A DNA stretch of 32,203 bases, from the NCBI GenBank assembly GCA_003252535.1, contig QKDN01000060.1:1-32203 (forward strand), read 5' to 3'. The translations under genes were made by a program, and so were the position numbers. Every line of letters begins with the position of its first letter. Position 1 is the first letter of the stretch. Below, piece by piece: positions 6,874 to 31,906 of this stretch. A model generated the notes under the pieces. The model saw only the letters and a program-made list of their open reading frames with translations, made no database searches and had not been told where the DNA came from. The stretch comes from Campylobacterota bacterium. Its GTDB lineage: Bacteria; Campylobacterota; Campylobacteria; Campylobacterales; Sulfurovaceae.

Positions 6874-7337
6874 TCTACCACCTCGACATTTTCCATGCAT
6901 ATCCTGTAGAGCTCTTCGCGCGACTCCTGGAGTTTGGGGTCGTTGATCTCTATGAACGAAAAGAGCAGCTCCCCGCTCGCTACGAGCTTGCCGTCGACGG
7001 TCGCCTTGACCTTCGCTACGCCGTACTCGTTCTTCATCGTATCGATGGCAGCGGTATAGATGAGCTTGTCGCCGGGTCTGGCGGGCCGTTTGATCTTGAA
7101 GTAGTTGACGATGCTCAGGACGGAGCGTTTCATCGGGAGATCGTCGTGCTTCATCATAATCTCGAAGAACGACCCCGCGAGCTGCGCCAGCCCCTCGATG
7201 ATGAGTGTCCCCGGGAATACCGGGTATCCCGGGAAGTGCTCGTTGAAGACATCATCGGCGAGGGTGATGCACTTCACTCCGACGATATACTCGCCATAAC
7301 AGATCGTATCAACTCTATCAACCAGATGAAATCTCAT
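6870..7337 (-). CDS. FabZ-like 3-hydroxyacyl-ACP dehydratase (hotdog fold)
   Basis: This 155-residue protein carries the FabZ active-site helix: NEHFPGYPVFPGTLIIEGLA with His34 and Glu48, spaced 14 residues apart as in FabZ. It should remove water from 3-hydroxyacyl-ACP to give the trans-2-enoyl form. The start follows the methyltransferase stop by nine bases with an AAGG Shine-Dalgarno, and its stop overlaps the next start. There is no recognisable enoyl-ACP reductase in the operon. The product may therefore keep C=C bonds, or the nitroreductase-like flavoprotein may reduce them. Confidence 0.85.
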   Translation of the reverse strand: MRFHLVDRVDTICYGEYIVGVKCITLADDVFNEHFPGYPVFPGTLIIEGLAQLAGSFFEIMMKHDDLPMKRSVLSIVNYFKIKRPARPGDKLIYTAAIDTMKNEYGVAKVKATVDGKLVASGELLFSFIEINDPKLQESREELYRICMENVEVVE

Positions 7338-15215: not shown

Positions 15216-16145
15216 CTAAAACTCCTGGAAATACCCCACCTGGAAGAGATACTTGTTATAGTTGGTATTGAGTCTTGAGAACCCTATCGCCCCGAACCAT
15301 CCGCTGTTCTTCGTCGTCCATTTCCTATAGCTCAGTTTGATATCGGCAGAATCCTCATCGAAAGGGGTATAGCCGTCAGCGAGGATGGAGCGGTAGGCCT
15401 GGTTGCCGTAGGAGAGATCGAGGTAGATCCACTGCTTCTTTTCCTCACCGTAGCCGATGCTCAGCAGGTCGCTTCGGGATGTGACATTACCCGGGTAGCT
15501 AGTGTTGAAGAAGTGGCGGTAGGTGATATTGTAGCGCGGGCCGTAATAGGTGAGTCCAGCCGAGGCCACTCGATCCCGGTGTCCGTTGTAGTACTCCATG
15601 AAACTCATCCCGAGGATACCCACCAAGTTCTTTTCCTCACCGAACTTCAGATAGAGCTCATGGTCGAAGCGGATTTTCGGCAGGTACTGATTGTCGGGAC
15701 TGCCGCCTATCTGGGTGAAGGTGTAGTAGGACGGGCTCCAGTCCTTGTAGGCCCCGATCGAAGCGAACATCGCATTGTTCTCGATACTCCTTTCGAAAAG
15801 CGCGAGCTGGTAGTAGAGGGTGAGGCTCTCGGGCAGCTTCTGGTAGTAGGCTGCGTTGAACTGCTTCCATGAACCATAGTCGTCATTGGGATCGAGGTAT
15901 TCGTACATCACGAAGAGTTCGAGCCGGTCCTGCCCTGTGACGTTCTGATCGCTTTTGAGGTTCGAGTCGCTGAAAAAGGTCTTTTCCCAGAATGTTCCGG
16001 CAGTAGCGGCAGATGCCGGCAGGGTACCCGCCGGTGTTTCGGTCCCCGGTATGGGTACGGGGTTTGGCATTGGTGTGTTCCCTGCTACGCCGCCTGCCAT
16101 CAGTACGGATGTCAGGGTGCTTAACGCGGCAAATAGTCTCATCAT
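15216..16145 (-). CDS. Outer-membrane beta-barrel protein, YaiO-like
   Basis: The 309-residue protein starts with a signal peptide (MMRLFAALSTLTSVLMAGGVA) and a short Pro-rich linker. About 230 residues of alternating aromatic/polar strands follow, ending in FQVGYFQEF. The terminal Phe is the usual barrel-assembly signal. Strand patterns such as WKQFNAAYYQKLPESLTLYY and DLLSIGYGEEKKQWIYLDLSYG resemble the YaiO barrel family, which in E. coli lies beside the glycosyltransferase gene yaiP. It is last in the cotH-to-barrel unit, nine bases after the deacetylase stop, with an AGGAG Shine-Dalgarno. It could be the outer-membrane exit for the polymer made by the unit's GT2. The family call is moderate; other porin-like barrels are possible. 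Confidence 0.6.
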   Translation of the reverse strand: MMRLFAALSTLTSVLMAGGVAGNTPMPNPVPIPGTETPAGTLPASAATAGTFWEKTFFSDSNLKSDQNVTGQDRLELFVMYEYLDPNDDYGSWKQFNAAYYQKLPESLTLYYQLALFERSIENNAMFASIGAYKDWSPSYYTFTQIGGSPDNQYLPKIRFDHELYLKFGEEKNLVGILGMSFMEYYNGHRDRVASAGLTYYGPRYNITYRHFFNTSYPGNVTSRSDLLSIGYGEEKKQWIYLDLSYGNQAYRSILADGYTPFDEDSADIKLSYRKWTTKNSGWFGAIGFSRLNTNYNKYLFQVGYFQEF

Positions 16146-16154
16146 TGCTCTCTC

Positions 16155-17981
16155 CTATTTGAATCTGACGAAAAAGGCTGTTCTGGAAGTACCCGGATCG
16201 AGCGGGATATAGTAGTAGTTCTCATCCTCCTCGTACTTTCTCTCCGGGACGATCTCTTTACCGCCGATCATTTTGGGCAGTGCCAGTACCTGTTCGCTCA
16301 GTGTCGTGTTGTTCTCGACAGATACGGTGATGCCGTTCTCGAGCAGTTCGAATCTCTGTTTCGTATCGATGAGTCTGAGGAGAAAGTTCCTCTCGTCTGT
16401 GAGCGTACGTGTCTGCAGACGGTTTTCAGCGACGAGCTTTTTGACATAATTGAGGTAGGATCGCATCGCGTTCTTGTATTCGTAATCGCGGATATCATAA
16501 GGGTGGGAATAGAAGAGCTTGACCGTACGGCTCCTGACCAGGTGATCGACGAATCCCAGCAGGTAGTTCTCGACAGCAGGTTCCTTTTCCTTGATATCAT
16601 GGAACTCCCTGAGCGATACGACATCATCGAAAGACATGACCGGGAAGGCGATGATATCCTTCGAGAGCATTTTGCCGTCGTAGAAAGTACGGTTGGGTAC
16701 CGAGCCGGTATCACCCGTATAATAGAACGAGCCGAATCCAAGCTCTTTCATGATCTCTATCGATTCATGTGGGGGGAAGTTGCCGTTGGGTGCGGAATAT
16801 TCGGTGGGTTTGTAGCCTACGATCTTTTCGAGTGTATCGTTGTTGAGCTTGATGTATTTCTTCATCTCTTTTTTGCCGAACTTGCCGCTGTCTATATTGT
16901 CGGAGAACCAGTTGTGGTTCCATCCCCCATGTGAGCCGATGGTACCGTATTCCATCAGCATCTTGACGAACATATACCCCTTCCTGGCAGCATCAAAACC
17001 CTGGTGATCTCCGACCCTGTCAAGATCAGGCCCGGCAGTGATATGGAAGCTCTGGTTGAAATCGTACTGTCCGATATAGCCGTGGGCGATATTCCAGGGG
17101 AGACTCGTGAACTCTACTGCCGAGTCGACGTGCCAGTTGAGGATCAGGGTCCCTTTTGCATTGGGAGCAGAGACGATATGGGGCATTTTGACCATTTTGA
17201 AGAGGAAGGTCTTCAGGAAGCTTCGGAGGATGAGGTCGTCCGAACGCCCTTTGAGCAGACCCAGCGGAGGGTTCGCATAGACGATCGAACCTTTGTAGAA
17301 GTTCCTTTCGACAAAGACCGCCTTGGCATCATCGCTGACGGCATAGACCTTCTGGTCGGAACTCTTTGTGAAATCGATATCGAGTGTGGGGTATTCGTAG
17401 CGTCCGTACTGGTAGCCTGTGATGGTATAGGTATCATCGACCCTGCTTGGTGGGAAGTCGAAGAAATCGACATTCTCTGCATTGGTGAATCGCACATGCC
17501 GCGGGCCGAAGGATTTGCCGCGCGCCCGCTCATAGGCAGCCAGGTCGACACCTATCCGCCTTCCGAGAAAGCTGTTCTCGGTGATGAACCTGCCGTTCTG
17601 ATCCTTACTGTCGGCATCATGCACCAGGGCGATGTGGCCGCCGTCTTTGACATAGTCGGCGATCCAGTACTCCGTACCGCTGAGGAGATGCTCATTGACG
17701 AATTCTGGAAATATGATCGCCGGGACCACTTTGGAGACCTTGGCTACATCCATCTTGATCAGTTTGTCGTTGGGGATGAACGCGAACGAGACCCCCTCTT
17801 CTTCCAGGACACTCCTGTAGGCATCAAGGATGTAGCTGTTGTTGTGCTCGAGGTTGTTGTAGACCACGAAAGCCTTGATCTCGTTCTGGAAGAGCTGATC
17901 GACCCTGTTCTGGGTAGAGAATACCTTGTAACCGACGAAGCCGAACACGGCGGCGAGTGCCAGATAAAAAAGTTTTTTCAC
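16155..17981 (-). CDS. DUF2194-like polysaccharide deacetylase, membrane-anchored or exported
   Basis: This protein has 608 residues and one N-terminal hydrophobic segment (residues 3-21). Residues 35-265 form an alpha/beta region resembling a ThuA/glutamine-amidotransferase-like fold. From about 275 a NodB-like deacetylase core appears: LNWHVDSA with Asp286, SHGGWNH with His351 and His356, EYSAPNGNFPP (394-404), and FYSHPYD with His493. The His pair spacing differs by one from the usual CE4 pattern. Such enzymes remove acetyl groups from amino sugars, as in PelA or PgaB. The start is GTG at 17981, overlapping the bactofilin-like gene stop (GTGA), with a GGGAGGG Shine-Dalgarno. A C-terminal beta-rich part follows the catalytic domain. 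It probably modifies the polymer during export. Confidence 0.72.
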   Translation of the reverse strand: MKKLFYLALAAVFGFVGYKVFSTQNRVDQLFQNEIKAFVVYNNLEHNNSYILDAYRSVLEEEGVSFAFIPNDKLIKMDVAKVSKVVPAIIFPEFVNEHLLSGTEYWIADYVKDGGHIALVHDADSKDQNGRFITENSFLGRRIGVDLAAYERARGKSFGPRHVRFTNAENVDFFDFPPSRVDDTYTITGYQYGRYEYPTLDIDFTKSSDQKVYAVSDDAKAVFVERNFYKGSIVYANPPLGLLKGRSDDLILRSFLKTFLFKMVKMPHIVSAPNAKGTLILNWHVDSAVEFTSLPWNIAHGYIGQYDFNQSFHITAGPDLDRVGDHQGFDAARKGYMFVKMLMEYGTIGSHGGWNHNWFSDNIDSGKFGKKEMKKYIKLNNDTLEKIVGYKPTEYSAPNGNFPPHESIEIMKELGFGSFYYTGDTGSVPNRTFYDGKMLSKDIIAFPVMSFDDVVSLREFHDIKEKEPAVENYLLGFVDHLVRSRTVKLFYSHPYDIRDYEYKNAMRSYLNYVKKLVAENRLQTRTLTDERNFLLRLIDTKQRFELLENGITVSVENNTTLSEQVLALPKMIGGKEIVPERKYEEDENYYYIPLDPGTSRTAFFVRFK

Positions 17982-18988
17982 ACAACCCTCCCTTCACCGT
18001 ATGTCAGGATATAGTTATGGACGAAGGTCCCGCCGGCTATCTCTATCCCTTTGATACCGATGATCGATTTCGGGGCGGCATACTTGCCGATCTGGGTGTT
18101 GTGCCCGATCCTGATGTAGGTATGGGAAAAGATGTTGCCGAAGACAAAACAGTGATGCTTGATCGTGATATCGTGGTCGCAGAAGATATTGCCGTAAATA
18201 TGGACGTTGTTTTCTATCTCGAGGTTGCCGTTGGCCTTGAGCGAACCGTAGATGCTGCACCCCTTTTCGATCCTGAGGTCGCCCCTGCCGATCACATCGC
18301 TGTGGATCGAACTGTCAGCCTTGATGGTTTCGTTCTTGTCCAGGTAGAGCGCCTGTGCCTCGACGTTCAGAGATTCTTTGGTGTGGACGATATCTTCACC
18401 GATCTTGTTCTCCCCCTCTTTGTTGAGCGGGTAAAATCCGATCGTCCCTGCAAAGATCCGTTTGAAACTGGAGCCTTTGTAAAGCTTGACCGTTTTTGCC
18501 GTGATGAGGTTGGTCCTGGCATTTTTGTGGACGATAACCTCCGCGCCCGAGTCGATCCACAGATCGACCATGCTCTCTTCCCCGATACTGATATGTTCTT
18601 TGCTTTTGAGGGCATGGATACGGGCATTGGGGTGGAACTTGATAGCGCCCCCCGCATCGAGTATCGCCTTTGAGTCGATAGTCCCGTCCACGGTGATATC
18701 CCCTTTCGTTCTGAAAAGCAGGGGTTTGCGTGAGAGCATCGGGACCATCGAGGTATCGAGCCTCTCTTCGAGGGGGATGACGTTGAAATCCCTTGCGGCA
18801 TTTTTGAGCAGGTTTTCGAAATGGATAGCCTGGAATCGGGGATTGAAGACAAAATCCATGTCCATACCCAGCGGCTCGACATCCTTCCTGTTGCGGATCG
18901 CCTGGATCATCGGGATGGCGGGGAGGAAGAGCATCAGGAAGAAGAGTCCGAAGACCCCTGCCATCAGGAAGGTAGGGTTACTTGGCAT
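17978..18988 (-). CDS. Membrane-anchored bactofilin-like polymer-forming beta-helix protein
   Basis: With the ATG at 18988 the product has 336 residues. One transmembrane helix lies near residues 6-26 (FLMAGVFGLFFLMLFLP). The rest is a repeating right-handed beta-helix pattern of short turns such as GRGDLRIEKGCSIYGSLKAN and GNLEIENNVHIYGNIFC. This resembles the bactofilin/polymer-forming family. The longer frame from 19060 is rejected because the ATG at 18988 has an AAAGGAAG Shine-Dalgarno and overlaps the glycosyltransferase stop by 11 bases. It may build a scaffold that positions the synthase, or a periplasmic bridge; the helix orientation cannot be fixed from sequence. Its stop overlaps the deacetylase start. 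Confidence 0.65.
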   Translation of the reverse strand: MPSNPTFLMAGVFGLFFLMLFLPAIPMIQAIRNRKDVEPLGMDMDFVFNPRFQAIHFENLLKNAARDFNVIPLEERLDTSMVPMLSRKPLLFRTKGDITVDGTIDSKAILDAGGAIKFHPNARIHALKSKEHISIGEESMVDLWIDSGAEVIVHKNARTNLITAKTVKLYKGSSFKRIFAGTIGFYPLNKEGENKIGEDIVHTKESLNVEAQALYLDKNETIKADSSIHSDVIGRGDLRIEKGCSIYGSLKANGNLEIENNVHIYGNIFCDHDITIKHHCFVFGNIFSHTYIRIGHNTQIGKYAAPKSIIGIKGIEIAGGTFVHNYILTYGEGRVV

Positions 18989-20252
18989 TGTTCTTCCTTT
19001 GGTGGCGCTTGGTCTTGTCCCAGTCGACATCCCTGCGTGTGGCGAGGTCGATAAGGGCATCGATGAAACCGCGCGACGTATAGAAGATATAGAGGACGAA
19101 ATTGAACGCGAACATCGGCGTGAGTTTCAGGGATTCGGTACGGCCGTCGAGGTAGTTCGCTATCGTTATCTGGAAGAACGGCGCAAAGTTCCCGAACGCA
19201 TTGATCGCCATGATCAGCAGCAGCGCCGACATACTGGTAACGATACTGATGGCATCCATGAAGAAGAGGAAGATGGAGTCTGCGATACCCACCATCAGAA
19301 GGATTGGCATCATATAGACAAAGAGCAGGAGCAGACCGTCCCATTTCTCCCTGAGCGTGAAATATTTCGAGGTGAAGATGGAGGGGAGATGGTGGAAGAG
19401 TACTTCGTTGTGCCCCCTCGACCATCTTCTGACCTGTCTCGCCCTTGCGGCCCAGGTCTCAGGCATCTGCTCGTAGCACTCTGTTTTGTTGGCATAGGCT
19501 ATTTTCCATCCGTTGAGATACATCTTGTAGGTGAGATCGGTATCTTCGGCCAGTACTTTGGGATCGAACCCTCCCATCTGCCTGACGACGCTTTTGCGGT
19601 ATGCGCCGACCGTTCCGCCGTACTGCGGGATGAGGTCCATATTGTATCTCGCCTGTTGGCTGATCTGGTACCCGGCGGAACGTTCCATATCGAGCAGAAG
19701 CGTCAGAAGGTTGCTGTCGCTGTTCTGGACAAGAACCCTCCCCATGACGGCTCCGACCTGCGGGTCCTTGAAGCCCATGACCAGTGATTTGATCGCCTCT
19801 TTTGCCGGCTGGTAGTCTGCATCGAAGACGACGATGATATCTCCCTTGGTGAACTTCATGACATCATTGAGCCCCTCTGCTTTTCCCCGTTTTTCATCTT
19901 CTTTGAGCCTGTGGAAAGGTTTGACCCCGGGATGTTTCCGTGCGAAGGTATCGATGATATCCTTTGTCCTGTCGGTAGAGTGGTCATTGATAGGGATGAT
20001 CTCCATCTTTTCCTTTGGGTAGTCCGAGAGTACAAGCCTCTCGAGGACATTCTCGGCGACCAGTTCTTCGTTGTGCATCGGGATGACGACGCTGACCGTG
20101 GGCATCTCTGTATCGAGAATATCGTGATAGTAGTTCCTCTGTTCGCCGTAGAGCCTGCTGTAGGTAAAGATAAAGTGCTGGATCATATAGATGGACATGA
20201 AAACGAGGAGGAATATCTGGTATGCCTGCCCGATAAGTATGAGATTATCCAT
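18978..20252 (-). CDS. Processive family 2 glycosyltransferase (BcsA/PgaC-like)
   Basis: The 424-residue protein has an N-terminal membrane helix and a GT-A domain (about 50-285). Its motifs are VVIPMHNEE (55-63), DAD (144-146), AEDTDL with the base Asp237, and QVRRW (273-277). The last motif is the signature of processive inverting synthases such as cellulose, hyaluronan or poly-GlcNAc synthases. Three to four membrane helices follow (about 300-400). There is no PilZ domain, so any c-di-GMP control would have to come from elsewhere. It overlaps the upstream membrane-protein gene by eight bases, which suggests the two form a complex. The sugar cannot be told from the motifs. Confidence 0.87.
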   Translation of the reverse strand: MDNLILIGQAYQIFLLVFMSIYMIQHFIFTYSRLYGEQRNYYHDILDTEMPTVSVVIPMHNEELVAENVLERLVLSDYPKEKMEIIPINDHSTDRTKDIIDTFARKHPGVKPFHRLKEDEKRGKAEGLNDVMKFTKGDIIVVFDADYQPAKEAIKSLVMGFKDPQVGAVMGRVLVQNSDSNLLTLLLDMERSAGYQISQQARYNMDLIPQYGGTVGAYRKSVVRQMGGFDPKVLAEDTDLTYKMYLNGWKIAYANKTECYEQMPETWAARARQVRRWSRGHNEVLFHHLPSIFTSKYFTLREKWDGLLLLFVYMMPILLMVGIADSIFLFFMDAISIVTSMSALLLIMAINAFGNFAPFFQITIANYLDGRTESLKLTPMFAFNFVLYIFYTSRGFIDALIDLATRRDVDWDKTKRHQRKNNAK

Positions 20253-20982
20253 GGTACAACCCCTGGGATTTGATAGTGTTCTTGTAGAGTACGAAAGTAT
20301 AGATATAGATGATCAGAATAAAATCATAAAAGATCGTAAAGTACATCAGGGGGACGAAAACGACCGATACCTGCGATACTAGCAGCAGCGTGGCAGCCAG
20401 ACGGACAAAGCTGTATACGAAGTAATAGGCGATCACCCCCGAGAGGATAAAGAGCTTTTTGCCCAGTTTCTCCGGAGTGAGCGCGAGGGAGAACGAAAAG
20501 ACGATAAAGCTCATCAGCATAAAGCCAACATAAGCGTGGAGGTAAAGCTCGAAATACTTTTTGGCATTGTAAGGGAAATAGGTAGGCCAGAATATGAAAT
20601 AGACCAGGAAGATCGCTGTAAGCAGCAGGAGGAAATCGATCCAGAAGACAAGGTTGAGCGGTATCTTCGTCTGGTAGACAAGGAAGAGCATCAGCCCGAC
20701 TGTCAGCAGGAGCACATAGAACAGTGTGATCTGTGAATTGTAATGGAAAGAGATGTCGAATGCCGACATACTGAAGGTATAGATATCGAGATCGATCATC
20801 TCTATGTGCAGGCCGCTCGCAGTGAAAACCTCATGGATCATCATCATGGCGTTATGGTGTATCAGTGTGATGTAAAAATAGATACTCCCTACAGATACGA
20901 GGACAAAGATCGCCAGATCGACCCACACCGGCAACCCATCCTTACTGATCGTTCTGTATGATCTATGCTGTCCCCATGCCAT
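20245..20982 (-). CDS. Polytopic membrane protein of unknown function
   Basis: This 245-residue protein has about six hydrophobic segments and few charged residues, and I do not recognise the family. The longest loop (about residues 48-85) contains HEVFTASGLHIEMIDLD. It has an AAAGGCGG Shine-Dalgarno, starts 17 bases after the CotH gene and overlaps the GT2 start by eight bases. Its position suggests a synthase subunit or polymer-export partner. Flippases of the Wzx/MATE type are much longer and it shows no such motif. Function is inferred from context only. Confidence 0.6.
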   Translation of the reverse strand: MAWGQHRSYRTISKDGLPVWVDLAIFVLVSVGSIYFYITLIHHNAMMMIHEVFTASGLHIEMIDLDIYTFSMSAFDISFHYNSQITLFYVLLLTVGLMLFLVYQTKIPLNLVFWIDFLLLLTAIFLVYFIFWPTYFPYNAKKYFELYLHAYVGFMLMSFIVFSFSLALTPEKLGKKLFILSGVIAYYFVYSFVRLAATLLLVSQVSVVFVPLMYFTIFYDFILIIYIYTFVLYKNTIKSQGLYHG

Positions 20983-20999
20983 CTATTATCCGCCTTTCT

Positions 21000-22742
21000 C
21001 TATTGGAGCTGGTTATCGATCCACGCTGTTCTTCCGAGGAGCCAGGTCTTCATCCCCAGGTTGATCGCATCGTCAAATGTAGCACAGTAAGCATCCTGCC
21101 CATTATAGTTGCAAAGCTTTTTGTTAGGCCAGACATATTTGCCGAGCACATTCGGCCAGCGTTCGAAATTTCTTGCCGCCGCTTCGGTAAGAGTGGCTTC
21201 GGACGTGGCGATGAAGGCCGAGAGGTTCGCGTCGGACCAGATCCCTACGCGCAGTGCCTGCCATTTTGTCCTGACCTTTGCTTTGAACGCAGGGTCGCTC
21301 ATCAGACGCTCCATCCAGTATCGCAGTGAGAAACCGCTATAGTCCTCATCGGCTGCACTGGATACGAGGAATTCATATGCCCAGATATTGTTTCGCCCTT
21401 CGAGCCTGAAGTTATTGTTCCCCATTGCCGAGTTGAAGTCCCATACGGGGGTCATCGCCAGATTTTTCTCTCTGTCTTTGTGGAAAAACTCACTTGCTAT
21501 CCAGGTATCCACATCCAGGAAGAGCTCCCGTACGAGGAAGTGGACGATAAAGCTCTCTTCATCGATCCATTTGCCGTAGTAGTTGTCGGAAGTACTGTCA
21601 TTGAAATCACTTGCTTTCAATGCTTTCTCAAAACTCTGGATATGATTCTCTATATAGTATTGCTGGTCAGCTGTGAGATCCTCAAGCCCAGGATAGTTGA
21701 CAGTAATGGTCGTTCCAAGCGTGCTGGAGAATCCGAACTCATCCGGATCGGGCTCCCAGTCCTGCTTGAGGATATAGCCGCCTGTGATCTCAGGCAGATT
21801 GATATCCTCCTCCTGGAGTTTCGAGATATCGAGACGATCGCTGCCCCTTTTGATCTTCTCCATGAGGACATAGAGACCGTCATAACGGTACTGATCGCCT
21901 ACGCGGGTGAGCACTTCGACGAACTCCGAACGGACAGCGTAGTATTTGCTTTCGTCGACCTCTCTCGCCTTGTGGTATACCAGGTAGTTTCTCATAAGCG
22001 TCTTATCGGCATAGGGGGCCTGGAGGATCCATTTGTGCTCTTCGGGCATCCCCAGGAGGGAGATATCGTCATCATCGCCGTCTGCGAGGATCGTATCCAT
22101 CCCGTATTGCTTTTTCGGATATACTAATTGTGAAGAGCTTCCCCTCCTCTCTATCTCCATAAAGCCCACATGGGTTGGAGTGGAGGTGATGTATGTGCGG
22201 CTGTCGCTCCCCGGCTCGAAGAGGGTGAGCGTCCCCATGACCTTGGGATCATCCGGTATCTCCCTGTCTCCGATATCGATGATCATGACGGGGAGGTTGG
22301 AGGAGAAGTTCGCAAGCTCTTTCCCTTCCATGATATCAGGCGAACTGCTGTTGAAATCCTCTATGGTGCCGTCGTTGGTCATGACAGGCAGTTGCATATT
22401 GGTGAGCTTGACCTCGATATTCTTGCTGCTGCCGTCGCTTCCGGTGACCTTGTAGAGAAAGGTATCATTGTTCTCGCCGCTGTTTACATACGAAAATCGC
22501 CCCTCTGTACTGTCAAGAAGCGTCGCATTCCCCTCTTGCGCCCCCGTGAGAAGGGTGTACTCGGCATTTGCGATCCCGCTGCTCGGAAGGTAGCTGATCT
22601 TGAGGATCTTCGAGGATATTTTGAGCGTGACGGTCTCATCAATGGTTATATTCGTGTCGTCGGTTGTGGCAGTGCTGCCGCCCCCGCCCCCGCAACCGAC
22701 TATCAAAAAAGATGTAAATGCTATGCCAAGGTACTTTTTCAT
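21000..22742 (-). CDS. CotH-kinase-family lipoprotein
   Basis: The 580-residue protein has a lipoprotein signal (LIVGC, acylated Cys17, followed by a Gly run). A beta-rich N-terminal region (about 30-135) precedes the CotH kinase domain (about 145-520). Typical segments are MEIERRGSSSQ, WILQAPYADKTLMRNYLVY, YDGLYVLMEKIKRG, LFLDVDTWIASEFF and TPVWDFNSAMGN. CotH proteins are atypical kinases; in Bacillus CotH phosphorylates spore-coat proteins. Homologues are common in extracellular polysaccharide and biofilm loci. It starts a second transcription unit (own promoter region, terminator upstream) with an AAAGGA Shine-Dalgarno. It should sit in the outer or inner membrane facing the periplasm or surface; a possible substrate is one of the surface proteins of this locus. 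Confidence 0.8.
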   Translation of the reverse strand: MKKYLGIAFTSFLIVGCGGGGGSTATTDDTNITIDETVTLKISSKILKISYLPSSGIANAEYTLLTGAQEGNATLLDSTEGRFSYVNSGENNDTFLYKVTGSDGSSKNIEVKLTNMQLPVMTNDGTIEDFNSSSPDIMEGKELANFSSNLPVMIIDIGDREIPDDPKVMGTLTLFEPGSDSRTYITSTPTHVGFMEIERRGSSSQLVYPKKQYGMDTILADGDDDDISLLGMPEEHKWILQAPYADKTLMRNYLVYHKAREVDESKYYAVRSEFVEVLTRVGDQYRYDGLYVLMEKIKRGSDRLDISKLQEEDINLPEITGGYILKQDWEPDPDEFGFSSTLGTTITVNYPGLEDLTADQQYYIENHIQSFEKALKASDFNDSTSDNYYGKWIDEESFIVHFLVRELFLDVDTWIASEFFHKDREKNLAMTPVWDFNSAMGNNNFRLEGRNNIWAYEFLVSSAADEDYSGFSLRYWMERLMSDPAFKAKVRTKWQALRVGIWSDANLSAFIATSEATLTEAAARNFERWPNVLGKYVWPNKKLCNYNGQDAYCATFDDAINLGMKTWLLGRTAWIDNQLQ

Positions 22743-22762
22743 ATTCCGTCCTTTATAGATAT

Positions 22763-22831
22763 ATTATATTTTCTTTAATTAATAATGTAGAACGCTCTAC
22801 ACACCTTTACTTTTATCTCTGTTACATTGTA
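22763..22831 (-). promoter_or_regulatory. Promoter region of the cotH unit with a 16-bp palindrome
   Basis: Two -10 candidates lie on the minus strand: an extended TGCTACAAT (22826-22834) and TATAAT (22763-22768). The second has TCTACA 17 bases upstream (22786-22791) as a weak -35. That -35 is half of a 16-bp palindrome, TGTAGA-ACGC-TCTACA (22786-22801), which could be a repressor or activator site. The 22743-22949 gap holds no gene. Confidence 0.4.
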
Positions 22832-22949
22832 GCACAACTAGGCTGATTAAGGAGAAAAAGAGCTGATTAACGGTGCATTGTTAGAATGTATGGTAGATTT
22901 GTTCCCAAAAGCCCTAAAGATGGGTCTCTGATCGTAAGAAAAGAGTCAG

Positions 22950-22978
22950 AAAAAAGTGCAGGAACTGCTGCCCCGCAC
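22950..22978 (-). terminator. Intrinsic terminator after the GH26-like gene
   Basis: On the minus strand GTGCGGGG and TTCCTGCAC can pair over eight positions (two G-U) around a 7-base loop, followed directly by six T. It begins 12 bases after the GH26-like stop and marks the end of the nfrB-to-GH26 unit. Confidence 0.7.
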
Positions 22979-22989
22979 CCCGGTGCAGG

Positions 22990-24111: not shown

Positions 24112-26666
24112 CACTCTATCAGCGAGGAGGCTTTGACGAAAGTGAATCCGAGGTTTTTGATGCCCGGGACAAGCTTGCTGAGGTCTTTGGTGCCAAGGTA
24201 CGGGTGGTAATAGAAACTCGCGATACCGTCGCGCACCACTCGCATCTTCGTTGCAAAGTTCAGAAGGTCGGAGACCGTCAGCACTCTGTACCCGTAGTTG
24301 GGCTGATCCTCGATATTATGGATATTTTCCGGGATGATATAGTAGCCGTAGATATCCCTTTTGATGACGTAGGGGTAGAACTGCCCTATGTAGCTGTTGC
24401 GCTGTACTGGGTCGATGCTGTCCTCGTCAAGGTAGTAGAGGAGTCTGGCGTACTGGACCTGGTAAAGGGTCTGGATGGCCTTATAATGGTCAGGCCCGGC
24501 CATATAGTGCGGGGCCTCCCATGCAAATGCCTGCATTCCGAGATTGTTGATGATCGCTTTTGCCCCGAGCATTCTGTTGAGCGCCCACTCGCCTCCGTAT
24601 TCGGGATCGAGTCTCGTGTAGATGTACGGGCTATAGATGTCGATCTCGACGACACGCATGAATTCGAAGTCGTCGCCTGTCAGACCGTTATAGGGGTTGA
24701 GCAGCGTAAAGAGCTGGTGCGTAGCGCCGTGCTGTACGATCTCGATCAATCCCTGGTCATAATAGTCTTTGAGCAGGTAGCCCACCGGAGTTTCGTTGAG
24801 CTTGTAGGATGTAGGGACACCTTCATTCTCTATGCCGTACGGGTCTTCATACTCTGCGATGGTCGCGATGGAGAACGGAACATTCTGTGAATCCATATAG
24901 TCCAGGATCGAGCGGAGATCGTTCTCATCGGTCATGGCACTGACATCCTCGAGTCTCATGAGTGCTTTGTGGGACTCTTCGTGCTGGACACCGAGCATAT
25001 CGTGGAGAAGATCGGCAAATGCCAGGTATCTGTCCTCTTCCGACATATAGAAGTACGGCACATCGCCGATGAACCAGAAGTTCCCCCCGCTCGTGATGTA
25101 GGGTTTGACCGGTACACTGCTGTCAAGCGTCGAGTACGCCGTCGCCCAGACGGTCGTTTTGTTCTCATCGAGGATATTGACATTGACCAGTTCTGTCGTA
25201 CATGCATAGCGGTTGTTCCCTTCGTCTACACAGGTTGAGACATCCGCACCCGGGGTTGCATACGGCACTACCCCTTTGAAGAGCTCGGTGTATTTGTATC
25301 CAACGCGGTTATAGGGGAGGGTGCTTTCGATGAATCCGGCTCCGAAGCCCGTCCGGTTGCTCATCATGTCGCCGTTCCACTGGTTCTCTACCCATGCCTG
25401 CTCAAGGAGCCAGAGGTTGTAGTTGATCCATATGACGCTGACATCAGGATATTCGGCGATATCATGGAAGAAGCTCATGTAGTTGTTGCGTCCTTCAGAA
25501 CCGTCGGCATAGTAGCTCAGGGTATCGTATGTCGTACCGAGGTAGATCACCGCTTTGTAGCGCTGCAGCTCTCCGGCACTGTAGCCGTCTGCCTGTTTGG
25601 AGGTGACATTGGCATCGAAGTGTCCGAGGAGATTCTCGGTGATGATCGATGTAGCTTTGCCGAGCCAGCCGTATGGACCTGATGCGTCGTAGAGTACCAG
25701 GACATTCGGTCCTGTAGCGACAGCAGGGGCATTCACTGTGAGGGTCATGGTATCGGTATCTGTTGCGCCGCCGTCATCGGTCACGGTCAGGGTGATGGTG
25801 AACGACCCAACCGTATCTGCGGTAAAGGAAGGATTGGCCCCCGTAAGGGTCGTTCCGTTGTATGACCAGCTGTAATCCGTGATCATGCCGTCGCTGTCTG
25901 AGCTGGCCTCAGCATTGAGCGTCACAGTGGCTCCCCGGGTGACGGTCTGGTCTGCTCCGGCATTGGCAACAGGAGGCACATTGGAGGGAGGCGGAGGCGT
26001 ATCGTTGACGGTCAGGATCATGGTATCGGTGGCTGTGGCACCGGCATTGTCTGTCACTGTCAGGGTGATGGTGAACGCCCCCACCGTCGCAGCAGTGAAG
26101 GTCGGCTTTACACCCGTGAGCGTAGTGCCGTTGTATGCCCAGCTGTAGTCGGTGATCGTACCGTCGCTGTCGCTGCTCCCCGAGCCGTCCAGTGTCACAG
26201 TCACCCCTTTGGTGACCGTCTGGTCGGCGCCTGCATCGGCAGCAGGCGGTATATTGGCCGGAGGCGGCGGTGTGTCGTTGACGGTGAGGATCATCGTATC
26301 GGTATCGGTAGCTCCACGGTCATCCGTCACCGTCAGGGTGATGGTGAAAGTACCGGCATTCTCTGCAATAAAGGTCGGCTGTACCCCGGCCAGTGTAGTG
26401 CCGTTGTATGACCAGCTGTAATTTTCGATCGTACCGTCCAGGTCTTTGCTGGCTGAGCCGTCGAGTGTGACGGTGGCACCTTTGAGAACGGTCTGATCGA
26501 CACCGGCATTGGCAATGGGCACTTTGTTCTTTTTGACCGAGGCGGCAGGTTTGGCTTTTTCCACTTTTGTCGCAGCTGCTGTGTCAGATGTGTTCTGACT
26601 CTCCCCGCAGCCGGTCGTGATCAGTAGCGACATGATCAAAATTGCTAATAGTTTATAAAATTTCAT
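24111..26666 (-). CDS. PKD-repeat lipoprotein with DUF2334 deacetylase-like domain
   Basis: This 851-residue lipoprotein (ITTGC, Cys20) has a short charged linker. Three PKD domains follow at about 50-130, 141-222 and 232-313, each with a period of 91 residues and linkers rich in Pro. From 320 on there is a GATase-like alpha/beta region and then a DUF2334-type deacetylase core: LMRLEDVS (569-576), VQHGATHQ (644-651), FAWEAPHY (714-721) and FYYHPYLG (818-825). These match the metal-binding Asp and His positions of NodB-like enzymes. It should act outside the inner membrane on a secreted glycan, with the PKD domains as spacers or glycan contacts. A TATAAT lies upstream, so it can be transcribed apart from nfrBA. 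Its stop overlaps the GH26-like start. Confidence 0.78.
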   Translation of the reverse strand: MKFYKLLAILIMSLLITTGCGESQNTSDTAAATKVEKAKPAASVKKNKVPIANAGVDQTVLKGATVTLDGSASKDLDGTIENYSWSYNGTTLAGVQPTFIAENAGTFTITLTVTDDRGATDTDTMILTVNDTPPPPANIPPAADAGADQTVTKGVTVTLDGSGSSDSDGTITDYSWAYNGTTLTGVKPTFTAATVGAFTITLTVTDNAGATATDTMILTVNDTPPPPSNVPPVANAGADQTVTRGATVTLNAEASSDSDGMITDYSWSYNGTTLTGANPSFTADTVGSFTITLTVTDDGGATDTDTMTLTVNAPAVATGPNVLVLYDASGPYGWLGKATSIITENLLGHFDANVTSKQADGYSAGELQRYKAVIYLGTTYDTLSYYADGSEGRNNYMSFFHDIAEYPDVSVIWINYNLWLLEQAWVENQWNGDMMSNRTGFGAGFIESTLPYNRVGYKYTELFKGVVPYATPGADVSTCVDEGNNRYACTTELVNVNILDENKTTVWATAYSTLDSSVPVKPYITSGGNFWFIGDVPYFYMSEEDRYLAFADLLHDMLGVQHEESHKALMRLEDVSAMTDENDLRSILDYMDSQNVPFSIATIAEYEDPYGIENEGVPTSYKLNETPVGYLLKDYYDQGLIEIVQHGATHQLFTLLNPYNGLTGDDFEFMRVVEIDIYSPYIYTRLDPEYGGEWALNRMLGAKAIINNLGMQAFAWEAPHYMAGPDHYKAIQTLYQVQYARLLYYLDEDSIDPVQRNSYIGQFYPYVIKRDIYGYYIIPENIHNIEDQPNYGYRVLTVSDLLNFATKMRVVRDGIASFYYHPYLGTKDLSKLVPGIKNLGFTFVKASSLIE
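25725..26519 (-). repeat. Three tandem PKD-coding repeats of 273 bases
   Basis: The PKD units begin at residues 50, 141 and 232 of the lipoprotein, exactly 91 codons apart. The linker DTPPPP and the phrase TDYSWxYNGTTLTG recur with little change, and the DNA is also similar. This is a coding repeat that could expand or contract by recombination. The third unit lacks the Pro-rich linker at its end. Confidence 0.85.
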
Positions 26667-26757
26667 AATTTGCTCCCTTTTTAAAATTGGACCGTTTTTT
26701 CAAAACTCCGATAATTCACATTCTTTTCAATCATCTCCGGAGTCACCCTCTCCCGCT

Positions 26758-26776
26758 ATAGACCAACATGGTCTAT
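26758..26776. promoter_or_regulatory. Perfect 8-bp palindrome at the transcription start of the PKD-lipoprotein gene
   Basis: ATAGACCA and TGGTCTAT flank three bases. The palindrome lies 9 bases downstream of the TATAAT at 26785-26790 (minus strand), so it would span about +2 to +20 of the transcript. It is either an operator blocking initiation or a 5' hairpin in the mRNA. Confidence 0.5.
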
Positions 26777-26784
26777 ATGCTTCT

Positions 26785-26790
26785 ATTATA
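26785..26790 (-). promoter_or_regulatory. TATAAT -10 box, internal promoter for the PKD/GH26 gene pair
   Basis: A perfect TATAAT lies in the 159-base gap between nfrA and the PKD lipoprotein gene. The -35 region is a T-run rather than TTGACA. It would give a leader of about 112 bases before the ATG at 26666. Confidence 0.5.
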
Positions 26791-26825
26791 CACAATTCTA
26801 TCCTTTTAAAAAATAAAACCGTTCT

Positions 26826-29800
26826 TTAAAAAAAGAGCTCGAGAAGGACCTTGACGGCATTGTCGTCTTTGGTGTTGCCGGAGTACTGGTGGCGTACTTC
26901 GAGCCTCACGCGGCCGATATAGCGGTGGGATTCATAACGGCTCTCATCCCTCCAGAAGAGGTAGGAGAGACCTCCGCCGACATCGAACCGTCTGATATCC
27001 TGTTTTTCGTAGTTGTCATTGTTGAAAGAGACCGAAGTGCAGAGGTAAGGCATGAAGGCATTGTCGTAGTCGAGCTTCCAGACATATCCGTGCTCGTAGT
27101 TGCCGTAGATACTGTAGGTCTTCGCATCGAGATAGTAGGCGCCGTCAAGATAGAGCGATCTGTACCAGTAACCGCTCTCGACAGGATGGAATTCGTAGCC
27201 GTCGAAGAGCCCGAGAGATGTGCGGATCATTGTATCATCACGGCTGTTGTCGCCGCCTTTGATGAATTTTTCGAGACTGAAGTAGAGATTGTACTCATCA
27301 AAAGGCTGCAATCTCAGACCGAACGATGGTTGTAGCGTATCCGGCTCAAGCATCACGTTTCTGTTCTTTACACCCGAGAGGGTTTTGAGATAGACTGTGA
27401 GTGCATCGTCGAAATAGTCCGGTTTGTAGCTCAGCTCCAGGGCGGCGATACCGTTGTAGCTCTCGGCGACGACCGGGGAGAAGGTCGCGGCAGGCCGGTC
27501 GTACTCGTCGAGCCGGGTACCGTATGCGAGATAGCCTGCGAATTTTTTGCCCAGTTCGCGTACGCTGCTTTTGAGTGCGTAGAGCTTTTTGGTATTGCCC
27601 GGTTCATCGTGCAATACAAGATCGATACTTTTTTTGAAATTCTCTCTGGCGCTCTTTTTCTGTCCGAGCTTCATGTTGCAGTAGGCAAGTGATTCATAAT
27701 ATTGCGCTTTGGGGGCCAGTCTGATCGCCTTTGTGAATGCCTTGGCCGCTTCGCCGTATTGCTCCTGACCATAATAGATATATCCGAGCTGTTCGTACCC
27801 GACGGCATTGTCCGGTTTGTACGCAAGCGAGCGCCTGATATGGGTAGCTGCCTGCTTGTATCGCTTCTCACCCATGTATCGGTAGCCCGACTCCGCTTCG
27901 CTCCGGGCGAGGTAGGAGGCTGCTTTTGCATTCCGCGGATTGAGCCTGTAGGCTTTCTGGGCGAATTGCAGCGCTTTTGTCTTGCGTTGCATCATATCGT
28001 ACATCGTAGCGAGCGAGAAGCACTGGGAGGAGCTGAGATGCGGTAATGCGGCGGTTTTATCAAGATGATAGAGGGCTCTTTTGTTGTCATGGCGGTCGTA
28101 GTAGTAGCGTGCTACCATCATGCCGATATTGAACCGTTCGTTCCCCTTCAGGCAGGGATAGGGAGCATGACGGCCGATCGCTTCGATGATCTGTGCTGAT
28201 CGTTCTTTCCCGTATGCCAGTTCGAGGAGAGCGTCCCGCCTGCACCCTTTGGATAGCTCTGCGAGAAGCATCTCACGGCTCGATCGCGTATCGCCTGTTT
28301 TGCCGTAGAGATAGGTAAGCTGCTTGCGGTATTCCGGTTTGGGATTCTCTGCATTGAGCTTTTGGACGATATCGATCGCTTTTTGCTTCTTGCCGATCAG
28401 GCCATACTGGTAGCTGAGGGTAAATCTCTGCTCTTCGCTCAGACCATCCATTCTGCCCAGGTCGTCGAGTATCCCGGCGATTTTTTCGTTCTCTCCCTGA
28501 TCCCTGTAGAAAGTGATCAGGGATTGGGAGAAGTTGAATCTCTCTTCGTTCTCCAGACCTGCAAAAGGGTAGTTTTCCCTGAGCACTGCGAACTCTTCGG
28601 GTGTTCCCCTGGAAGAATGGAGGAGTCTTGAGAGGAGGGAAGGGGAGGGGTCGGTCCGGTAGAGCTCCCTGAGGATACGAAGCGACTTCCCGCTCTCCCC
28701 ATAGCGGCTGTAGATCGTGCCCAGGTAGAGCTTCTGGTCGGTGCTGAGCCCGTCAGTGGCGGCAAGATCGTCGGCTATGGAGAGTATCTTCGACTTGTTG
28801 TTCTCTTTTTCATAGAATCCGATAAGCGAAGAGGAGAAGTTGAACTTCTCTTTTGCGGTGAGACCCTCGAAGGGGTAGTGCTTTTTGAGGAGTTCGAACT
28901 GCTCTGCACCCTCTTTGTCGGTATAGAGCAGTTTGGCCATGTCCCGTGGATCGTCGGAGGAGGTGGTGCTGTAGAGCTTTTTGGTCTTGTCACCCATCCC
29001 GGCAGACTCGTAGAGGTAGACGAGACGTTTTTTGTTCTCTTCGCTGTGGTCGGCGTTGTATATCTCTTCCATTGTTTCGGCAGCTTTGGCGGCTTCCCCG
29101 TTCTCCTGGTAGGCCAGGACCTTCTGCTCCTGTTTGATACGATAGTTCCCGATGAGCCCGGTGATCTTCAGGGATTCGTCGTATCTTTTTGCGTTTCTCA
29201 GGATATCGGCCCATACTGCGAGCTTCCTGTCCGGGAGAGGTGCTTCCGTGCAGGACTTCTGGTGGTTTTCGATCTCGCCGAGGGCGAGGGTATACATCTT
29301 CTGTTCGATGAGGAGTGAGATCACATTGATCGTCTCGCCATGGCATTTGTGGGCGCTTTTCCCCTGATGGAGGGTGGCATCGAGATATTTTGCTATACCC
29401 TTCTCATCGTGCAGCATGATAGCCGATTTGAGGGCAATGATATCGTTCTGCGAGCGTTCGGCAGCAGTGAGCACATTGTTGTCGACTACCGATGCCGCAT
29501 TTTGATAGGCATTCTGATAGGCTTTTTCATTGAAGTAGATGTTCGCTTTGTAGTACCGGGCGTAGGATGGAGGCTTGATATTGTCCACATAGCTTTTGGC
29601 ACAGGCATAATCGCCGCTCTCCATACAGAGAACAACGATCTTCTTCGATACATCAGAGTTGCTTCTGTCTATCTCCAGTATCTCTTTGAGGAGTTCTACC
29701 GCCTCTTTTTTCTTCCCTTCGTAGATATAGTTCTCGGCTTTTTGCAGCCTTGGATAGACCCTGAACTCGTTCAGGTCCTTCTGGATAAAGTTCTGTGAAT

Positions 29801-29867
29801 CAGCCTCTGCATGGAGCTGTGTCTGTGTCAGGCCGAGTAAGATCGACAGTGTCAGTAAGCGTTTCAT
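26826..29867 (-). CDS. nfrA: NfrA-like TPR and outer-membrane polysaccharide-export protein
   Basis: The 1013-residue protein (E. coli NfrA is about 990) has a signal peptide (residues 1-20, TQTQLHA). Many helical TPR-like repeats fill about 30-760, for example AVGYEQLGYIYYGQEQYGEAAKAFTKAIRLAPK. The C-terminal domain (845-1013) matches the NfrA C-terminal family: LRLQPFDEYNLYFSLEKFIK, then DGYEFHPVESGYWYRSLYLDG, ending in LLELFF. NfrA is the phage N4 receptor and is proposed to export the polysaccharide made with NfrB. The layout is like BcsC, PgaA and PelB: a periplasmic TPR arm and an outer-membrane barrel. Its ATG overlaps the nfrB stop (ATGA). The match is by recalled sequence pattern. 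Confidence 0.82.
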   Translation of the reverse strand: MKRLLTLSILLGLTQTQLHAEADSQNFIQKDLNEFRVYPRLQKAENYIYEGKKKEAVELLKEILEIDRSNSDVSKKIVVLCMESGDYACAKSYVDNIKPPSYARYYKANIYFNEKAYQNAYQNAASVVDNNVLTAAERSQNDIIALKSAIMLHDEKGIAKYLDATLHQGKSAHKCHGETINVISLLIEQKMYTLALGEIENHQKSCTEAPLPDRKLAVWADILRNAKRYDESLKITGLIGNYRIKQEQKVLAYQENGEAAKAAETMEEIYNADHSEENKKRLVYLYESAGMGDKTKKLYSTTSSDDPRDMAKLLYTDKEGAEQFELLKKHYPFEGLTAKEKFNFSSSLIGFYEKENNKSKILSIADDLAATDGLSTDQKLYLGTIYSRYGESGKSLRILRELYRTDPSPSLLSRLLHSSRGTPEEFAVLRENYPFAGLENEERFNFSQSLITFYRDQGENEKIAGILDDLGRMDGLSEEQRFTLSYQYGLIGKKQKAIDIVQKLNAENPKPEYRKQLTYLYGKTGDTRSSREMLLAELSKGCRRDALLELAYGKERSAQIIEAIGRHAPYPCLKGNERFNIGMMVARYYYDRHDNKRALYHLDKTAALPHLSSSQCFSLATMYDMMQRKTKALQFAQKAYRLNPRNAKAASYLARSEAESGYRYMGEKRYKQAATHIRRSLAYKPDNAVGYEQLGYIYYGQEQYGEAAKAFTKAIRLAPKAQYYESLAYCNMKLGQKKSARENFKKSIDLVLHDEPGNTKKLYALKSSVRELGKKFAGYLAYGTRLDEYDRPAATFSPVVAESYNGIAALELSYKPDYFDDALTVYLKTLSGVKNRNVMLEPDTLQPSFGLRLQPFDEYNLYFSLEKFIKGGDNSRDDTMIRTSLGLFDGYEFHPVESGYWYRSLYLDGAYYLDAKTYSIYGNYEHGYVWKLDYDNAFMPYLCTSVSFNNDNYEKQDIRRFDVGGGLSYLFWRDESRYESHRYIGRVRLEVRHQYSGNTKDDNAVKVLLELFF

Positions 29868-31906
29868 GCCTGTATCCTTTTGAGTTGGTCCTCGGGGAGA
29901 AAACCGAACGCCTGGCAGGCGGCGATGAGGTCAAGACCCTCTTCAGCCCTGCGTTCCAGGATCCTGTCGATCATGTTCGCGGGGATCATTTTCTGTTTGA
30001 GGATGGTATGGAGCTGTACGAACTCCACCGGGGTCAGTTCGGGGAAAAGAAGCTCTTTTTGCAAAGCCTGGATGGACCGCTCATCGGATATGAAGAGTTC
30101 TACCGCTTCGGCAAGACGCTCTTTGATATCTTCGAGCTTCACATCGATCACCTGACCCGACGAGATCACAGGTCTGAGCGCCCCCTCTTTTTTGAGGAGC
30201 AGCAGATCGTACCGGAGCATATCGAACCTGTCGAACTGTGCCATTGCTTCGGTATCGACCCGGTCAGAATCGATGTCGATGTAGGTGAGGTCGTTCTGCA
30301 ATGCCATAGCCTGGGCGAGCTGCCTGTCGGAGATCACCCCTTTTGAGACCAGCAGTTTGCCCAGCGGCTTGTGACGTGCCTTCTGTTCCTGGAGCGCATC
30401 GCGGAGTGTATCCTGGTCGATAAGGCCGGTTTCGCTCAGGATATCGCCCAGTTTTTTGTTGAACTTCACGGTAACGGGGAAATCGTGTTTGGTCTTGTCC
30501 CATGGGATGGTATTGGTCTTTTTGGAACCGAAGAACTGTTTGATAGCCCGCCACATCGCAAAGAAGTTGATAAAGTTCCCCCAGACGATCCTCGGAAAGC
30601 TCATCAGCGAGCCTCTGGCGCCATAGACGATGTAGGTGAAGTACATTCTCTGGAAGATACGGTTGAGAAAAAAGAAGAAGTTGATGATAAGGATATACCA
30701 GATCACTGTCCCCTCTTCTATGAAAGGTGGGAACCACCATGCATCCGTTGTCAGTTTGGAATAGAGGTTCATCAGGAGGATACTGATCACCAGTATATAG
30801 GCCATGACATTGGCCAGGTTGGTAAATATCCCTTTACGGTCGCGGTAAAGTATGTAGTTGGTGATGAAACTGTTCGACCAGCCGATCTTTTCCCACCCCT
30901 GCAGGGCGATACCGATGAGCCAGCGTGATTTCTGATTGACCGCTTTCCAGAAACTCGAAGGGAAGAACTCCCTTACGGTGATGAGCTCCTGCTGCTTCAC
31001 GCTTTTGCGCTGCTCACCCCCGCTGGTCTTGACATATTCCATCTCTGCGGGCATCCGCACGAATATCAGCTTCATTTTCTCCTGGAAAAGCTCATAGCCG
31101 AGGTTGTAGTCCTCTGTCAGGGTACCGATGAGGAACACATCGCCTTTGTGGAGTTCTTTGAGCTTCATGATGGCGTTGCGGCTCAGCCCCGTACCCACCC
31201 CGGCGCTCGGGACGAATCCGAGGATACTTTCGCGTACGATCAGGTCCTTGCCGTGGTTTTCGGCGAACTCATCCTCGTAGTGGCCGTTTGTGAGATCGTA
31301 CCATTCGCGTTCGAACGGAAAGACGGGGATCTGGATCAGGTCGTTCTTCCTGATAAGATGGTTGAAGAGCTTGAGTTCGAGGGGATGGATCAGGTCTTCG
31401 GCATCATGGAGGACGAACACCTCGAACTCCATCTCGAAGTTCTTTTCGAACTCAAATATATATTCGATGATCCTGTTGAGACAGTCCGACTTGCTGGTGG
31501 GACCGGGGAGAGGATTGACCACCTTGTAGACGTTGCGGTAGTGCTGCGCAACGATATCGACATCCTGCTGTGTGGCCGGGTCGTTGGGGTAGGTACCGAT
31601 GAAGATATGGTAGTTGAAGTATTCGAAGTTGGAGGCCATCAGGGCTGCCATATCGCCTATGACACCACTCTCCTGCCAGGCCGGGACCAGGATCGCGATG
31701 GGTTTTTCCGGGTTTTTATAGAGTTCATTGATGTCAAAAGGTTTGTGTACTCTGTAGACGGTAAGCCTCCGCCACAGACGTCTGACCCAGTAGTAGCAGT
31801 CGATAAAAAAGTCGTCGATACTGCTCAGAAGAATCACGACTGCTGCAAAATAGAGCATATATTTTAATACAAGCCAATAAGCGGCAAAAAAGTCGACCAA
31901 CCACAT
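29864..31906 (-). CDS. nfrB: NfrB-like inner-membrane glycosyltransferase with c-di-GMP-binding MshEN domain
   Basis: The 680-residue protein has N-terminal membrane helices (about 8-30) and a GT2 domain with LVPAWQESGV (73-82), HDAED (167-171), LTEDYNLG (263-270) and QKSRW (325-329). More helices follow (about 360-415). The C-terminal MshEN (GspE N-terminal) domain has two 24-residue c-di-GMP motifs. The first is 485-508 (LGDIL ... LRDALQEQ) and the second 514-537 (LGKLL ... LAQAMALQ), separated by the canonical five residues. The leading Arg of the consensus is Lys and Pro. In E. coli NfrB is activated by c-di-GMP through this domain and makes a surface polysaccharide. The first gene of the unit, it should synthesise and push the polymer to NfrA. 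Confidence 0.88.
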   Translation of the reverse strand: MWLVDFFAAYWLVLKYMLYFAAVVILLSSIDDFFIDCYYWVRRLWRRLTVYRVHKPFDINELYKNPEKPIAILVPAWQESGVIGDMAALMASNFEYFNYHIFIGTYPNDPATQQDVDIVAQHYRNVYKVVNPLPGPTSKSDCLNRIIEYIFEFEKNFEMEFEVFVLHDAEDLIHPLELKLFNHLIRKNDLIQIPVFPFEREWYDLTNGHYEDEFAENHGKDLIVRESILGFVPSAGVGTGLSRNAIMKLKELHKGDVFLIGTLTEDYNLGYELFQEKMKLIFVRMPAEMEYVKTSGGEQRKSVKQQELITVREFFPSSFWKAVNQKSRWLIGIALQGWEKIGWSNSFITNYILYRDRKGIFTNLANVMAYILVISILLMNLYSKLTTDAWWFPPFIEEGTVIWYILIINFFFFLNRIFQRMYFTYIVYGARGSLMSFPRIVWGNFINFFAMWRAIKQFFGSKKTNTIPWDKTKHDFPVTVKFNKKLGDILSETGLIDQDTLRDALQEQKARHKPLGKLLVSKGVISDRQLAQAMALQNDLTYIDIDSDRVDTEAMAQFDRFDMLRYDLLLLKKEGALRPVISSGQVIDVKLEDIKERLAEAVELFISDERSIQALQKELLFPELTPVEFVQLHTILKQKMIPANMIDRILERRAEEGLDLIAACQAFGFLPEDQLKRIQA

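Follow-up and report, generated by a model that had tools for sequence, protein, structure and literature searches.

The question raised by the locus described here is whether ten polysaccharide genes lying side by side form one exopolysaccharide system or two. The genes occupy positions 15216–31906, on the minus strand, of the window, a complete contig of 32,203 bp (C34) from the 2.92-Mb, 99.95% complete genome of a Campylobacterota bacterium of the family Sulfurovaceae (G000). The original prediction, made from the sequence alone, placed all of them in one enlarged version of the NfrB–NfrA system, linked to cyclic di-GMP (c-di-GMP). We confirmed the ten genes, tightly packed and in the order first described, and found the catalytic motifs intact in most of the ten proteins (Table 1). 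Our analysis leads us to hold with considerable confidence that the locus consists of two independent synthase-dependent exopolysaccharide modules, unit 2 (15216–22742) having been inserted beside unit 1 (22990–31906), with both apparently based on N-acetylmannosamine (ManNAc) and unit 1 controlled by c-di-GMP. What appeared to be a single complex locus thus resolves into two systems, and the genes for the CotH-type kinase, the membrane protein, the second family 2 glycosyltransferase (GT2), the bactofilin-like protein, the second deacetylase and the YaiO barrel belong to a different system from nfr.

Protein families were assigned by Pfam and NCBIfam profile searches. The family survey comprised 175 Sulfurovaceae-like genomes, many of them incomplete metagenome-assembled genomes (90 of the 175 reach at least 90% completeness with no more than 5% contamination), and the search beyond the phylum covered plasmids and E. 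coli collections (5,426 E. coli genomes).

Separate home sites of the two modules

The original prediction implied that the two units would be found together in other genomes, and they are not. NfrB is present in 18 of the 175 family genomes and the unit-2 GT2 in six, where its homologues outside G000 are 58–61% identical; G000 alone has both, against 0.6 shared genomes expected by chance from these frequencies. The gene-for-gene conservation of the modules elsewhere is well above chance, and each module has a site of its own. A complete unit 1 (nfrB–nfrA–DUF2334–GH26) lies beside pnp, without unit 2 there, in four Sulfurovum genomes (G516, G515, G560 and G522), where about 21–113 bp separate the end of gh26 from pnp, which is convergent with it, and the genes beyond pnp, PRT and lptD, are those of the window. 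It is exactly this interval between gh26 and pnp that the six genes of unit 2 fill in the window. The home site of unit 2 lies elsewhere, in the arrangement rplS–A–B–[cotH divergent; memb–gt2–bactofilin–deacetylase–(glycosidase-like)–yaiO–wecB]–rluA/crp found in L007, in G287 and, up to the end of its contig inside wecB, in G539 (a further locus, L016, ends before yaiO), and the same site is without unit 2 and wecB in six relatives (G323, G141, G440, G516, G515 and G522). No nfr genes adjoin unit 2 at the Sulfurovum unit-2 loci.

A single Nfr-glycan pathway, in which the second synthase–barrel pair and the modification genes would all serve one polymer, would agree with the common strand and compact layout of the locus, with the absence of any core gene separating the units, and with the plausible use of UDP-ManNAc by both. 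It is largely refuted by the separate home sites, at which each unit is complete, and by the coincidence of the two synthases in one genome only, while outside the phylum the unit-2 core is also found without adjacent nfr genes; we consider it very unlikely.

Several points weigh against the two-module reading and the ManNAc assignment that goes with it. The ten genes are co-oriented and cotH is turned relative to Sulfurovum, so that co-expression of the two units is possible in G000. The wecB gene of G000, encoding the UDP-GlcNAc 2-epimerase, is on another contig (C49:43337–44455), where its neighbours are other glycosyltransferase genes and one for a nucleotide-sugar dehydrogenase-like protein, so that the link to ManNAc is made by homology, and no wecB was detected in one of the NfrB genomes (G524, 99% complete). 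The membrane protein of unit 2 could not be matched between Sulfurovum and enterics, leaving homology unproven, and the AlphaFold models of this protein (pLDDT 49.6) and of the unit-2 deacetylase (pLDDT 40.5) were too poor and were not used. No weight was given to promoter or terminator scans, since the numbers of sites in the region (19 versus 15.1 expected by chance for promoters, 19 versus 14.1 for terminators) were close to chance.

Table 1. Positions in the window of the genes of both units, the junction between them and the neighbouring core gene
Feature	Position	Strand	Remarks
nfrB, inner-membrane GT2 synthase with C-terminal MshEN c-di-GMP-binding domain (unit 1)	29864..31906	-	
nfrA, tetratricopeptide repeats (TPR) and outer-membrane barrel (unit 1)	26826..29867	-	NfrA_C E 1e-20, plus TPRs
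Predicted exported lipoprotein with PKD repeats and DUF2334 deacetylase domain (unit 1)	24111..26666	-	DUF2334 E 6e-35
gh26, GH26-type glycoside hydrolase, predicted lipoprotein (unit 1)	22990..24114	-	Glyco_hydro_26 E 2e-11, above cut-off
Junction between unit 1 and unit 2	22743..22989	-	Promoter-like site 22791-22763 upstream of cotH, consensus match 10/12
cotH, CotH-type kinase, predicted lipoprotein (unit 2)	21000..22742	-	CotH E 4e-36
Polytopic membrane protein, unnamed family (unit 2)	20245..20982	-	34-37% identity in Sulfurovum
Processive GT2 synthase, PgaC-like (unit 2)	18978..20252	-	Nearest PgaC/IcaA, 157 bits, cut-off 422
Membrane-anchored bactofilin-like beta-helix protein (unit 2)	17978..18988	-	Bactofilin E 6e-6, 26.8 bits, cut-off 27.9
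Membrane-anchored polysaccharide deacetylase-like protein (unit 2)	16155..17981	-	Polysacc_deac_1 E 6e-5
yaiO, YaiO-family outer-membrane barrel (unit 2)	15216..16145	-	YaiO Pfam E 8e-29, TIGR04390 E 9e-39
pnp, core gene marking the insertion site, outside both systems	12903..15083	+	Convergent with gh26 in four Sulfurovum genomes

Unit 1 and its accessory genes

The two proteins that gave the locus its name were correctly recognized in the original prediction. NfrB scores 719 bits (E 6e-216) with the NCBIfam NfrB profile, below the equivalog cut-off of 1170, and is 44% identical to E. coli NfrB across 611 amino acids; it carries the DAED, TED and QxxRW motifs of processive GT2 enzymes and a tandem MshEN motif. 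The predicted connection with c-di-GMP holds for this protein, as the MshE-type c-di-GMP_motif profile gives 58.5 bits, exceeding its cut-off of 38, and the MshEN domain matches PilF/MshE structures; it does not extend to unit 2, among whose proteins the profile searches recognized no c-di-GMP domain. NfrA is 22% identical to E. coli NfrA (E 4e-17), and nfrA and nfrB overlap by 4 bp. The DUF2334 gene adjoins nfrA in four Sulfurovum genomes, with a C-terminal part 54–56% identical, and the GH26 protein has four Sulfurovum homologues (61–64% identity), with its presumed catalytic pair, E243 and E367, within conserved segments. Comparison of the Sulfurovum loci indicates that only these two genes belong with nfrBA. 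DUF4434, the family of the third E. coli gene, ybcH, is not encoded at the nfr locus of the window, where GH26 stands in its place. Judged by its sequence, unit 1 is a genuine Nfr-type locus that additionally encodes a deacetylase and a glycosidase; it is a variant of the E. coli phage-receptor system.

Expanded nfr loci as such are already known, as passages of two 2021 surveys describe wecB, diguanylate cyclase, BcsB and acetyltransferase genes at nfr loci (PMC8669469, PMC8669472). Compared with the accessories named in these passages, a TIM-barrel-type glycosidase and the DUF2334 deacetylase stand out as additional ones. The glycosidase lies 3' of nfrA, as GH26 in the window and in four Sulfurovum genomes; DUF4434 is found at the nfr loci of other Sulfurovaceae, Thalassospira, Pseudoalteromonas and Comamonadaceae, and the DUF2334 deacetylase at those of Sulfurovum, the genus g63 and Comamonadaceae. 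In Comamonadaceae, Thalassospira and Pseudoalteromonas, nfr genes are accompanied by wecB, DUF2334 and/or DUF4434. E. coli K-12 YbcH (L078:1092–1982), for which a scaffold role in the periplasm has been considered possible, itself belongs to DUF4434 (E 1.5e-69) and so is probably a TIM barrel of the glycosidase-like type; ybcH is reported to be nonessential for Nfr function in E. coli. NfrB homologues of about 480–515 amino acids in four loci of genus g63 (L045–L048) and in L087 end before MshEN, which suggests that direct c-di-GMP control may have been lost in these proteins. A Streptomyces plasmid cluster (L088:3377–9656), with the gene order wecB–GT2–DUF2334–GH113, looks like a Gram-positive counterpart with a hydrolase of a mannanase family.

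GH26 and GH113 are best known as beta-mannanase families, a background that would fit a beta-linked ManNAc backbone. In E. coli, NfrB is a c-di-GMP-binding protein that depends on WecB for producing the glycan receptor of N4, in which ManNAc is proposed to be present (PMC8669469, PMC8669472). A model can be drawn for unit 1 in which NfrB, activated by c-di-GMP at MshEN, would build a polymer across the inner membrane from a UDP-sugar, UDP-ManNAc being the likeliest. In the periplasm the chain would be edited by the GH26 hydrolase and the DUF2334 deacetylase, by analogy with the action of the two halves of PgaB on poly-N-acetylglucosamine (PNAG), and NfrA would then export it. For the field of Nfr and the N4 receptor, the proximity to the synthases of a 2-epimerase, a deacetylase and glycosidases of the GH26, GH113 and DUF4434 families fits a partly deacetylated, beta-linked ManNAc polymer, a proposal that is testable.

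Unit 2 in Sulfurovum and beyond the Campylobacterota

The second synthase–barrel pair noted in the original prediction is present, as GT2 and YaiO, and its family names stood for most other genes, those of the DUF2334 lipoprotein, the GH26-like hydrolase, CotH and the two members of the pair being supported by profile matches. The unit-2 GT2 conserves the NDHS, DAD (DxD), EDT(D/E) and QxxRW motifs. In a synthase tree it groups with the synthases of five Sulfurovum loci, two Cupriavidus loci, an E. fergusonii plasmid and E. coli AH19B041 in a single clade that excludes PgaC, YaiP and NfrB; the outgroup branches are long. CotH is 51–52% identical to the divergently transcribed neighbour of unit 2 in Sulfurovum, and its D435 sits in an invariant WDF motif. 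The membrane protein has no Pfam match even at E 5 and matches Cupriavidus proteins weakly (E 2e-6 and 2e-5). No TPR was found in the YaiO barrel by Pfam search.

Two names need qualification. The bactofilin-like protein matches the Bactofilin profile with a score just below cut-off, and its start had to be moved, as alignment to relatives makes the internal ATG at 18988 more likely than 19060. It has a single N-terminal transmembrane helix, followed in most homologues by basic residues, and this charge bias predicts a cytoplasmic beta-helix; the E. fergusonii form is without the helix, and the Escherichia homologues are annotated 'polymer-forming cytoskeletal protein'. The other protein is deacetylase-like, with five CE4/NodB-like motifs (HVDS/HIDS, SHGGWxHN, YSAPxG, TGD and HPYD) invariant across six homologues, but it matches Polysacc_deac_1 only and not DUF2194 (PF09960, no match at E 0.1), to which it had been likened. 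The Pfam search recognized no hydrolase domain in it, a sequence search against the PDB gave nothing significant, and a search of the named genomes with this protein returned one locus only.

The relatives of unit 2 carry a wecB gene. It is directly 3' of yaiO in all four Sulfurovum relatives with a visible flank; both Cupriavidus loci have it about 0.4–0.6 kb upstream of the deacetylase gene, and in Escherichia it separates the bactofilin gene from yaiO. There is none beside unit 2 in the window. Because wecB is linked to unit 2 elsewhere, the unit-2 polymer is suggested to be ManNAc-based as well. Outside the phylum, Cupriavidus pMTS1 carries two copies of the set wecB–deacetylase–GT2–bactofilin–glycosidase-like–YaiO–membrane protein. 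Escherichia islands (AH19B041, NCTC8623, A41 and pRHB18-C04_2), located on an IncI1-type E. fergusonii plasmid and on 3 of the 5,426 E. coli chromosomes, have the order bactofilin–wecB–YaiO–membrane protein–acyltransferase–glycosidase-like–GT2 (L082:5581–12206 and L083:8669–15580), in surroundings that hold fimbria-related genes. The GT2 of the clade, the membrane protein, the bactofilin-like protein and YaiO are found together in the window, in four Sulfurovum loci and in both Cupriavidus loci. Homology points to a constant core of unit 2 that is composed of GT2, the bactofilin-like protein, YaiO and WecB, usually with a small membrane protein, while the deacetylase, acyltransferase, CotH and, in Cupriavidus, an adjacent and divergent galactose-oxidase-like protein are its variable parts. 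The latter (L079:23005–25032, minus strand) resembles galactose/glyoxal oxidases and is reminiscent of Streptomyces GlxA, which is reportedly found beside cellulose-like synthases. Unit 2 is a separate, conserved kind of synthase-dependent system, of which we found no published description in the open-access literature; neither did we find there a functional study of this gene set or of yaiO/yaiP.

In the mechanism proposed for unit 2, the PgaC-like synthase, probably together with the small membrane protein, would make the polymer, the membrane-anchored deacetylase would modify it and YaiO would export it. A scaffold for the synthase, acting from the cytoplasmic side, is the likeliest role of the bactofilin-like protein; the target of CotH may be the glycan, or a protein associated with it, which it would phosphorylate. 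It is conceivable, though on balance doubtful, that unit 2 is a widespread exopolysaccharide machine that travels as a cassette from one phylum to another, its own wecB included. On this view, a polymer of the bactofilin-like protein in the cytoplasm would hold a poly-ManNAc synthase at a single site of the cell, where YaiO would extrude a fibre or holdfast that is partly deacetylated and possibly phosphorylated by CotH. If the bactofilin truly organizes the synthase, this would be a cytoskeleton-guided polysaccharide secretion system.

Elsewhere in the window, at the contig end (220–1077, minus strand), lies hamA, of the Hachiman defence system (DUF1837; PADLOC E 6e-83), with a third-position GC content of 0.16 versus about 0.7 in most other genes; it is best seen as a recent foreign gene. 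Positions 1315–7337 (minus strand) hold a type II fatty-acid-like cluster with FabF, FabZ, ACP, two SDR reductases, a nitroreductase-like protein and a radical SAM protein that resembles the tetraether lipid synthase Tes/TrsS, below cut-off; its product is possibly an unusual lipid or polyene.

Comparison with known systems

Unit 1 is close to the E. coli NfrB–NfrA–YbcH system, which makes the NGR glycan, the receptor of phage N4: both have an NfrB with MshEN, homologous NfrA proteins and overlapping nfrB and nfrA genes in the same order. They differ in that unit 1 adds DUF2334 and has GH26 instead of YbcH. The logic of unit 1 is also that of the PNAG system (pgaABCD), with a TPR barrel, a deacetylase and a hydrolase, a GT2 and control by c-di-GMP; here, however, the deacetylase and the hydrolase are separate genes of other families, and c-di-GMP is sensed by the MshEN domain of NfrB. 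As originally predicted, the architecture of the locus is not that of Pel, PNAG, cellulose or alginate, and for cellulose (bcs) no BcsB match was found by Pfam among the ten proteins.

Unit 2 could be regarded as a diverged PNAG system, in which the GT2 would use UDP-GlcNAc and the deacetylase, YaiO and the membrane protein would take the places of PgaB, PgaA and PgaD, respectively. PgaC/IcaA is indeed the best-scoring family of the GT2, and unit 2 does encode a deacetylase and an outer-membrane barrel, but the score is far under the PgaC cut-off and the synthase belongs to a clade separate from E. coli PgaC (itself a long branch). Furthermore, YaiO stands instead of a TPR porin, neither a PgaA-type porin nor a PgaB-type fused deacetylase–hydrolase was found in unit 2 by Pfam, and wecB goes with the module, whereas PNAG requires no 2-epimerase. 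This interpretation therefore appears improbable to us.

The twisted-stalk clusters of iron oxidizers, sfz and xag, are reported to combine, as this locus does, a GT2 with a glycosidase and a protein that has a CotH domain (PMC8250860), and unit 2 might accordingly produce a stalk- or sheath-type fibre. However, Sfz1 resembles BcsB, and in Sfz2 a GT2 is joined to an MshEN/EpsE-type domain; Pfam gave no BcsB-like or MshEN match in unit 2, and no bactofilin, YaiO or deacetylase appears in the text of that paper. A stalk system of this type is extremely improbable for unit 2, a twisted-stalk identity being ruled out on published gene content and not on sequence comparison.

The E. coli yaiS–yaiP–yaiX–yaiO cluster resembles unit 2 in that a GT2, a beta-helix protein and a barrel of the YaiO family are encoded in the same order and a deacetylase is encoded as well; yaiX and yaiP overlap, as do the genes for the bactofilin-like protein and the GT2. 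It differs in that YaiX is a hexapeptide-type acyltransferase and YaiS a PIG-L-type deacetylase, and in having no wecB, membrane protein or CotH. Membership of this cluster in the unit-2 family was rejected (GT2 22.6% identical, YaiO barrels not significant in direct comparison, YaiX 84% hhalign probability). Lastly, in the Escherichia islands an acyltransferase replaces the deacetylase, CotH is missing and there is an additional glycosidase-like protein, but they share with unit 2 a synthase of the same clade, the bactofilin-like protein, YaiO and wecB. An exopolysaccharide gene set composed of synthase, bactofilin-like protein, YaiO and WecB is thus conserved and common to Campylobacterota, Betaproteobacteria and Enterobacteria.

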